Assembly: GCA_028709235.1 (NCBI GenBank)
Contig: JAQVXL010000019.1
Coordinates: 1-36,967 of the forward strand
Direction of reading: 5' to 3'
From: Desulfotomaculaceae bacterium
Lineage (GTDB): Bacteria > Bacillota > Desulfotomaculia > Desulfotomaculales > Pelotomaculaceae
DNA length: 36,967 nt
A program made the position numbers and the translations under genes. The notes beneath the pieces were generated by a model. It had not been told where the DNA came from. It made no database searches and saw only the letters and a list, made by a program, of their open reading frames with translations. This document shows, piece by piece, positions 23,802 through 32,189 of this stretch; position 1 is the first letter of the stretch; every line of letters starts with the position of its first letter.

Positions 23802-23830
23802 AACACTCCTCCTTATCAGTGGCTTTGAAA

Positions 23831-23848
23831 TATGAAACATGTTTCATA
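23831..23848. promoter_or_regulatory. Palindromic operator at the DUF134 promoter
   Basis: Perfect 18-bp palindrome TATGAA-ACATGT-TTCATA. It starts 4 bp downstream of the -10, covering the predicted transcription start. Same half-sites, spacing and placement as at 29756-29773. Confidence 0.65.
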
Positions 23849-23852
23849 AAAC

Positions 23853-27988: not shown

Positions 27989-28045
27989 ATTATTGACATA
28001 GGTTCATAATAATTATATTCTTCATTATGAACCTATGTCAATAAT
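27989..28045. promoter_or_regulatory. Divergent overlapping promoters inside a 22-bp perfect inverted repeat
   Basis: Arms 27989-28010 and 28024-28045 are perfectly complementary over 22 bp, with a 13-nt AT spacer. Each arm carries an outward-facing TTGACA. Plus strand: TTGACA 27993-27998, 17 bp, TATTCT 28016-28021. Minus strand: TTGACA (complement of 28036-28041), 18 bp, TATAAT (complement of 28012-28017). Each promoter has TATGAA-CCTATG-TCAATA starting 3-4 bp after its own -10, because the other arm supplies it. Both promoters should respond to one regulator. Confidence 0.8.
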
Positions 28046-28177
28046 ATTATCCTTGGAATTTAAAATAATATTGATTACAGGCAAAAATTTATCTATAATA
28101 TTTTTGAACAATGTCTCATTAAATGGTGCAAGAAGTATCCTAAAAGAAAGGTTAAATAAAAAGGAACGGGGGCAGGT

Positions 28178-28597
28178 ATGGTAGAATTGGATAACGGGGC
28201 GGTGCAAGAGAACCAGAGGATAAAAGAGGAATGGGTATCAGCGCTTATTGAACTGAACAAACAGCTTAAGCAGTGGACAGTGGCACAGATTAAGGAATGG
28301 GAAAAGGATCCAAAACAAGCCGTGGTCCCGTGCGTTATCGAAACAACCACTGAGAAACAGGAAGAATATCTGGGCAAATATTTTGCCCCGGCGCTGGTCA
28401 TTACTTCGGAAGAATGTGAGGTGGTTGTGCGGCCAGTCGGCAGGTTTGCCATAGGCGCCATTGGTCAGGTATGTATGACGAACAACAGGCAGTCTATAAA
28501 CTTTTTGTACTCGAGAAAAAAAGGCTGGTTGGTTATGGAAAACAGGAAACCTCTGACCAGGGAAATGTTTCTTGGTTTGCTTGAACAGATGTGTTAG
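28178..28597 (+). CDS. Hypothetical protein, divergent from the NifX-like operon
   Basis: 139-aa soluble protein that I do not recognise. ATG 28178 follows GGGGGCAGG. The N-terminal third is helical and charged. The middle is beta-like (PALVITSEECEVVVRPVGR), and the end is helical. Cys residues are scattered: VPCV, EECE, QVCM and the final Cys. Its promoter shares the inverted repeat with the nifX-like gene, so it is expected to be co-regulated with metallocluster genes. The DUF1847 gene follows 38 bp later and is probably in the same transcript. Confidence 0.7.
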   Translation: MVELDNGAVQENQRIKEEWVSALIELNKQLKQWTVAQIKEWEKDPKQAVVPCVIETTTEKQEEYLGKYFAPALVITSEECEVVVRPVGRFAIGAIGQVCMTNNRQSINFLYSRKKGWLVMENRKPLTREMFLGLLEQMC

Positions 28598-29754: not shown

Positions 29755-29774
29755 TTATGAACATACATTCATAA
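29755..29774. promoter_or_regulatory. Operator at the first iscU-like promoter
   Basis: Inverted repeat TTATGAA-CATACA-TTCATAA (7-bp arms, 6-bp spacer). The TATGAA...TTCATA core lies 3 bp downstream of the -10, as at the DUF134 and divergent promoters. Confidence 0.62.
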
Positions 29775-29936: not shown

Positions 29937-30383
29937 TTAAGTAAGCTTTCTTCCTTTGATTTTTGAAAGCTCAAGGTAGTCTTCAATAGCCATATTGAGT
30001 GTTTCTGCCGCCCATTCGGCACAGTGCTCGTGTACTTCCGGCAGGCCGCCCAGGGCCTCCATGATTTGATCCTTGCCGATACTCTTCGCTTCCTGCAAAG
30101 ACCGGCCTTTGGCCAATACCGTGGTGATACTGCCGCTGGCCAGGGTCGGGACACAGCCGTCTGTCCAAAAGGTAGCCCTGGTAATAGTATCGTTTTGGAT
30201 ACTAACCCACATGCTCAAGGTGTCGCCGCATTCAGCCGACATGGTCTGGGCGAAGCCGTCGCTCTTGGGCAGGCTGCCCATGTTGCGGGGGTTTTGGGCA
30301 TGATCAATTACGGTTTCGCTGTATTTATCGTGCAAACTATCTAAAACTTCTTTCTCGGCATGATGCTTGTCATGTTCGTTCAT
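29937..30383 (-). CDS. IscU/NifU-N-type Fe-S cluster scaffold (second)
   Basis: Tandem paralogue (148 aa from ATG 30383, behind GGAGGAT). The three cluster Cys are kept: ECGDTL, GCVPTLASGS and HCAEWAAE. The segment after the second Cys is changed from CGAS to CVPT, an unusual substitution in a very conserved loop. Its N-terminus is His/Asp/Glu-rich (NEHDKHHAEKE). It has its own promoter, lacking the palindromic operator of the first copy, so the two may be expressed under different conditions. Confidence 0.9.
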   Translation of the reverse strand: MNEHDKHHAEKEVLDSLHDKYSETVIDHAQNPRNMGSLPKSDGFAQTMSAECGDTLSMWVSIQNDTITRATFWTDGCVPTLASGSITTVLAKGRSLQEAKSIGKDQIMEALGGLPEVHEHCAEWAAETLNMAIEDYLELSKIKGRKLT

Positions 30384-30456
30384 TAAATATCCATCCTCCT
30401 GTATTAACATAATTCACTAATTATCATTCAATAATTTTTTTGCACCTTTTCTGATT

Positions 30457-32026: not shown

Positions 32027-32055
32027 AGGGGTGGCAGGCAAAACCACCCCTTTTT
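32027..32055 (+). terminator. Terminator upstream of the glycosyltransferase gene
   Basis: AGGGGTGG / CCACCCCT, 9-nt loop, followed by TTTTT. It lies 135 bp before the glycosyltransferase start, so it may be a second terminator for the GTPase or an attenuator. Confidence 0.65.
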
Positions 32056-32189
32056 GAAATATATTTGATAAGAATGATAGATATTTTTTTATCTTGTTAT
32101 ATGGAAATAAAAGTAGGATTTTCCTGCTATTAGAAGAACCTTCATCTGATATATATTTTTGCAAAACTTTTTTTGTAAAGGAGATAACA

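Follow-up and report, generated by a model that had tools for sequence, protein, structure and literature searches.

The perfect inverted repeat at positions 27989-28045 is probably a double operator built around one sigma-A-type promoter, with a DUF134 protein as its likeliest regulator and a small regulon that would include the regulator's own gene. The window, meaning here the whole stretch of DNA analysed (36,967 nucleotides), contains both the repeat and the gene of this candidate regulator.

The arms of the repeat (27989-28010 and 28024-28045) were complementary at 22 of 22 positions and flanked a centre of 13 nt. When loops of up to 40 nt were allowed, this was the longest inverted repeat in the window, followed by one with arms of 18 bp. 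The longest arms in Markov-1 shuffles of the window (n = 6) measured 9-12 bp, and arms never exceeded 13 bp when the local 250 bp were shuffled 1,500 times. The perfect 22-bp repeat reported in the first-pass annotation is thus real and far above chance.

A pattern scan identified a leftward promoter on the minus strand (28041-28012), with the structure TTGACA-18-TATAAT and a 12/12 match to the consensus, in front of a nifX-like operon; its -35 hexamer lies at 28036-28041 and its -10 hexamer at 28012-28017. Each arm consists of a 20-bp pseudo-palindrome, TTATGAA-N6-YCATAA, which we consider a putative operator. The right arm, named O1 (28024-28045, minus strand; 20-mer core at 28025-28044), overlaps the leftward -35, and the left arm, named O2 (27989-28010, minus strand; core at 27990-28009), straddles the predicted leftward transcript start, with 35 bp between their centres. 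Two copies of one site are therefore present at a single promoter, at positions where a bound protein would block RNA polymerase, and their register is conserved. The arms had previously been proposed to be regulator sites overlapping promoters, which holds for the leftward -35 and start; the second promoter that this proposal placed inside the element is not conserved.

The close relatives that bear names are Pelotomaculum and 'Candidatus Syntrophopropionicum'. The leftward -35 was invariant at all six positions in the five genus members, and the -10 was nearly so in the four relatives sharing the intergenic region. At the level of the family, which consists of Pelotomaculum-like bacteria, 22 nifX-like genes were preceded by TTGACA-(16-18)-TAYAAT-(2-5)-TTATGAA-N6-YCATAA, with a -10 of TATAAT or TACAAT in every case. 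Both half-sites of O2 were present in 21 of these 22 promoters, the remaining one (L059) having one half only; the search pattern demanded TGAA, so that the first half-site is partly found by construction, while the second was free. The position of O2 relative to the -10 was kept across the family, and a copy of O1 overlapping the -35 was observed in 15 of the 22 promoters. A distant paralogue (L072) was without operator. The resemblance of O1 to an inverted O2 arises because one of the two O1 half-sites is provided by the -35 sequence. The end of O2 reads GACCATAA, GACCATAT or GGTCATAA in the other genus members and GTCAATAA, identical to O1, in the present genome, so that the perfect 22-bp repeat looks like a derived state.

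The NifX-like protein (PF02579; 27611-27973, minus strand; E = 2.5e-26) is encoded by the first gene of the leftward cluster, which also includes genes for a DUF5320 protein, two 4Fe-4S MRP ATPases, a second NifX-domain protein, an MRP/NBP35 ATPase and the DUF134 protein (PF02001; 23397-23801, minus strand; E = 1.3e-23). The rightward unit begins with a gene encoding a 139-aa protein (28178-28597, plus strand), for which no family match was found, followed by a DUF1847 (PF08901) gene; beyond the latter, on the opposite strand, are NifU-like genes, one of which encodes a NifU-like N-terminal-domain protein (PF01592; 29281-29745, minus strand) and has its own operator.

To score sites in the window, we used a position weight matrix (PWM) built from O2 sites, with the sites at the DUF134 and NifU-like promoters outside the training set. 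The best score in the window (23.8) was obtained for a perfect palindrome, TATGAAACATGTTTCATA (23830-23849, minus strand), located 5' of the DUF134 gene after TTGACT-17-TATTAT. It was followed by both arms of the repeat (22.0 each), by TTATGAATGTATGTTCATAA (29755-29774, minus strand; 20.5), located 5' of the NifU-like gene after TTGACA-18-TATTAT, and by a weaker copy in front of the 139-aa gene, TTTTGAACAATGTCTCATTA (28102-28121, plus strand; 15.7). The maximum over 20 Markov-shuffled windows was 16.7; the last of these sites is therefore weak alone and rests on its conservation. With this copy, both divergent genes carry the putative regulator site, as had been suggested earlier. A weak operator-like site at 32052-32071 (PWM 13.3) scored below the best site in shuffled windows, and no obvious operator copy was seen at the second NifU-like gene (29937-30410), which lies beside the first.

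A sequence-only operator model, R1, was also applied to the complete genome (2.27 Mb). The two arms, which are training sites, ranked at the top; the matches outside the training set were the DUF134 promoter, where both strands matched, the NifU-like promoter and, lower in the list, a second DUF134 locus (contig 75), together with two unrelated low matches. In the other genomes of the family, many of the annotated operator matches precede NifX, MRP, NifU-like, DUF5320 or ferredoxin genes, and a few weaker ones are found elsewhere, for instance near a CoA transferase gene (L191).

The likeliest regulator of these sites, judging from sequence, is the DUF134 protein of the cluster, whose own gene would be among its targets. 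This protein is a clear member of DUF134/UPF0251 (PF02001), with a score of 83.8 bits for a curated Pfam cut-off of 27, and the family is present in 108 of the 113 genomes of the class to which the source organism belongs. Its predicted structure contains a helix-turn-helix (helices 36-47, 52-58 and 63-83; pLDDT of about 90), in which the predicted recognition helix, 63-83, starts at R63. The model could be superposed on DNA-bound sigma region 4 and DeoR at 0.7-1.0 Å over 40-50 residues; Foldseek scores were weak (E of about 0.07-0.1, with a probability of 1.0). A C-terminal CxxC/CxxC knuckle, predicted with low confidence, at most hints that the signal could be a metal, an Fe-S cluster or the redox state. 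A sequence search for relatives with a solved structure found none, and our literature search found no reported operator or function for DUF134/UPF0251 (PF02001). The single UPF0251 paper that came up reportedly has Rex in Thermoanaerobacterium as its subject.

DUF134 genes of other families have such sites themselves, and operator class was found to track the class of the DUF134 recognition helix. In family f9, the promoters of the DUF134 genes showed the O1/-10/O2 layout, and in several of them about 13 bp separate the end of O2 from the start codon. Among DUF134 genes with an AQSTFQR helix, GGGTATATA was present within 250 bp upstream in 9 out of 9, versus 0 out of 127 other DUF134 genes, a comparison that is not an independent test because the genes are related and the motif was selected with the sequences already in view. 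The second DUF134 protein of the source genome (helix ARTTVQR; G000 contig 75, 26743-27024; L133, L268) belongs to a DUF5320-DUF134-MRP operon, 5' of which two TTGACATATGTCAATAA-type sites lie about 38 bp apart around the -10; this type of site had no further match in the genome.

For numerous DUF134 genes, among them the majority of those with an RPTY helix, no such operator was seen within 250 bp upstream; these genes may lie inside operons. Motifs shared by RPTY-class genes (k-mers) were more like hairpins and ribosome-binding sites than like an operator, and an inverted-repeat count over all DUF134 upstream regions mainly returned hairpins. A regular-expression test of the RPTF class against the remaining DUF134 genes was not significant (17 out of 68 versus 13 out of 68; p = 0.54). 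Mean arm symmetry was 7.5 for DUF134 promoters and 7.4 for other TTGAC frames, a control set contaminated with the same promoters. Three loci of the RTTV class (L118, L268 and L271) had strong hairpins 20-30 bp upstream of the DUF134 start codon, possibly corresponding to an attenuator or an mRNA-stability element. At another locus (L121/L157; G005 contig 125), a DUF134 gene was apparently split in two frames beside a perfect ATGAAACATGTTTCAT palindrome, which may reflect a frameshift or an assembly error.

A broader scheme can be drawn, in which DUF134 proteins are widespread autoregulatory repressors of Fe-S/metal-cofactor clusters, with operators that obey a recognition-helix code (RPTF-ATGAAC, QSTF-TGGGTA and RTTV-TTGACA). 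The arms would then join a class-I half-site (ATGAAC) to a half-site resembling that of the paralogue (TGTCAATAA), so that cross-regulation or joint binding by two DUF134 paralogues is conceivable at this promoter. We regard this scheme as doubtful.

The sites could instead be bound by a different global regulator, which would leave the layout and the logic of repression unchanged. A Crp/Fnr-like protein would be one example: such proteins bind sites with a 5-N6-5 spacing, which the N6 spacing of the operators fits. The few weaker matches near other genes, including the CoA transferase gene, also speak for this reading. However, the location of most strong annotated matches at DUF134, NifX, MRP, NifU and DUF5320 loci, and the correspondence of operator class with helix class on DUF134's own promoters, make such a regulator unlikely.

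The first-pass annotation had proposed another organization, with two face-to-face promoters whose overlapping -10 elements allow only one to be occupied at a time, each arm providing the -35 of one promoter and the operator of the other. Both pairs of hexamers do exist as strings in this genome, the rightward one being TTGACA-17-TATTCT (27993-28021, plus strand; 10/12), and the genes on either side point away from each other. Bidirectional promoters, moreover, have been described as ubiquitous in bacteria on the basis of work in E. coli (PMC12825309), so that the arrangement would not be rare, as had been claimed, even if it were correct. However, among the relatives compared, TTGACA occurred in the left arm of this genome only; in the four relatives sharing the intergenic region, TGGTCA or TGACCA stands in place of the proposed rightward -35. 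The functional, conserved elements in both directions that characterize a bidirectional promoter are thus lacking on the rightward side, and mutual exclusion of two promoters loses its support. Weak rightward initiation may still occur in this species.

The 139-aa gene has a separate promoter, absent from the first-pass annotation and found by pattern scan, which is likely the true rightward promoter: TTGATT-17-TATAAT (28071-28099, plus strand; 10/12), whose TATAAT is invariant in the five genus members. The weaker operator copy described above lies just 3' of its -10. This TATAAT promoter and its operator, about 75 bp from the element, are kept in all relatives sharing the region, and the TATAAT followed by the operator is retained in two orthologues of the 139-aa gene (L078 and L080) that do not share a contig with the nifX gene. 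An alignment of related species had also been proposed as a check for compensating changes in the two arms, with uncompensated divergence counting against the symmetrical switch. The arms matched at 22 of 24 positions in this genome only, at 18 of 24 in the closest relative and at 12-17 of 24 in the others; they had diverged without compensation, which also speaks against selection for symmetry. Altogether, two promoters sharing this element seem improbable.

An independent perfect 22-bp inverted repeat with the same layout around a -10 was found in another genus (L193; G017 contig 11, about 1495-1550), where it precedes a ferredoxin-DUF5320 operon; a DUF134 gene lies at a distance of about 3 kb. 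On the opposite strand, no annotated ORF comes closer than about 0.9 kb; such symmetry therefore arises from paired operators, and a divergent neighbour is not needed, which again disagrees with a two-promoter switch. The symmetry of the repeat at 27989-28045 thus appears to be incidental. As for a structural or mobile feature (an RNA hairpin, a terminator or the terminal inverted repeats of a small element), which the perfect 22-bp symmetry and short centre might evoke, it is barely credible: the predicted leftward transcript starts downstream of O1 and thus cannot form the hairpin, the arm sequence has two exact copies in the 2.27-Mb genome, both inside this repeat, which excludes a mobile-element end, and promoter elements are conserved within and around the repeat.

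Under the double-operator reading, a dimeric regulator would recognize the 20-bp pseudo-palindrome, with one dimer per site. An occupied O1 would prevent recognition of the -35 and an occupied O2 would cover the transcription start, so that, with the sites bound, RNA polymerase would be obstructed and the leftward NifX-like/MRP cluster repressed. The 139-aa, DUF134 and NifU-like genes, each with its own promoter and an operator just 3' of the -10, would complete a small regulon. We infer that DUF134 is the protein that binds and represses, including at its own gene, which would constitute negative autoregulation. In this species, O2 would have become identical to O1, giving the perfect 22-bp repeat.

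If DUF134 is the regulator, the element provides an uncharacterised family that is very common in this class with an operator and a promoter layout. The regulon would then comprise NifX-like, MRP, NifU-like and DUF5320 proteins, the correspondence between helix and operator would become testable, and there would be a way into how Gram-positive syntrophs regulate their anaerobic Fe-S/metal-cofactor clusters. More generally, tidy symmetry can come from paired operators, with no need for a two-way switch.

Among known systems, the element resembles the bidirectional promoters described in bacteria (PMC12825309) in having a pseudo-symmetrical promoter region between divergent genes; it differs from them in that the second direction is not conserved and the neighbouring gene has its own promoter. 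Another parallel is the ORP (orange protein) cluster of Desulfovibrio vulgaris, in which the divergent operons orp1 and orp2 are co-regulated from sigma-54 promoters by the activator DVU2106 and IHF, and in which a DVU2106 site overlaps the sigma-70 promoter of its own gene, resulting in negative autoregulation (PMC3897727, PMC6345978). Both systems combine divergent operons, MRP-type ATPases with 4Fe-4S motifs, NifX-domain proteins and palindromic sites; in the window cluster, NifX-domain proteins, MRP/NBP35 ATPases and the pair of 4Fe-4S MRP proteins were all present. The pattern scan for sigma-70-type hexamers identified such promoters at the element, and no sigma-54 activator domain was found in the proteins scanned from the cluster and its surroundings. 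The present system appears to be distinguished by sigma-A-type promoters, by putative operators placed over the -35 and the start, and by DUF134 as the candidate regulator.
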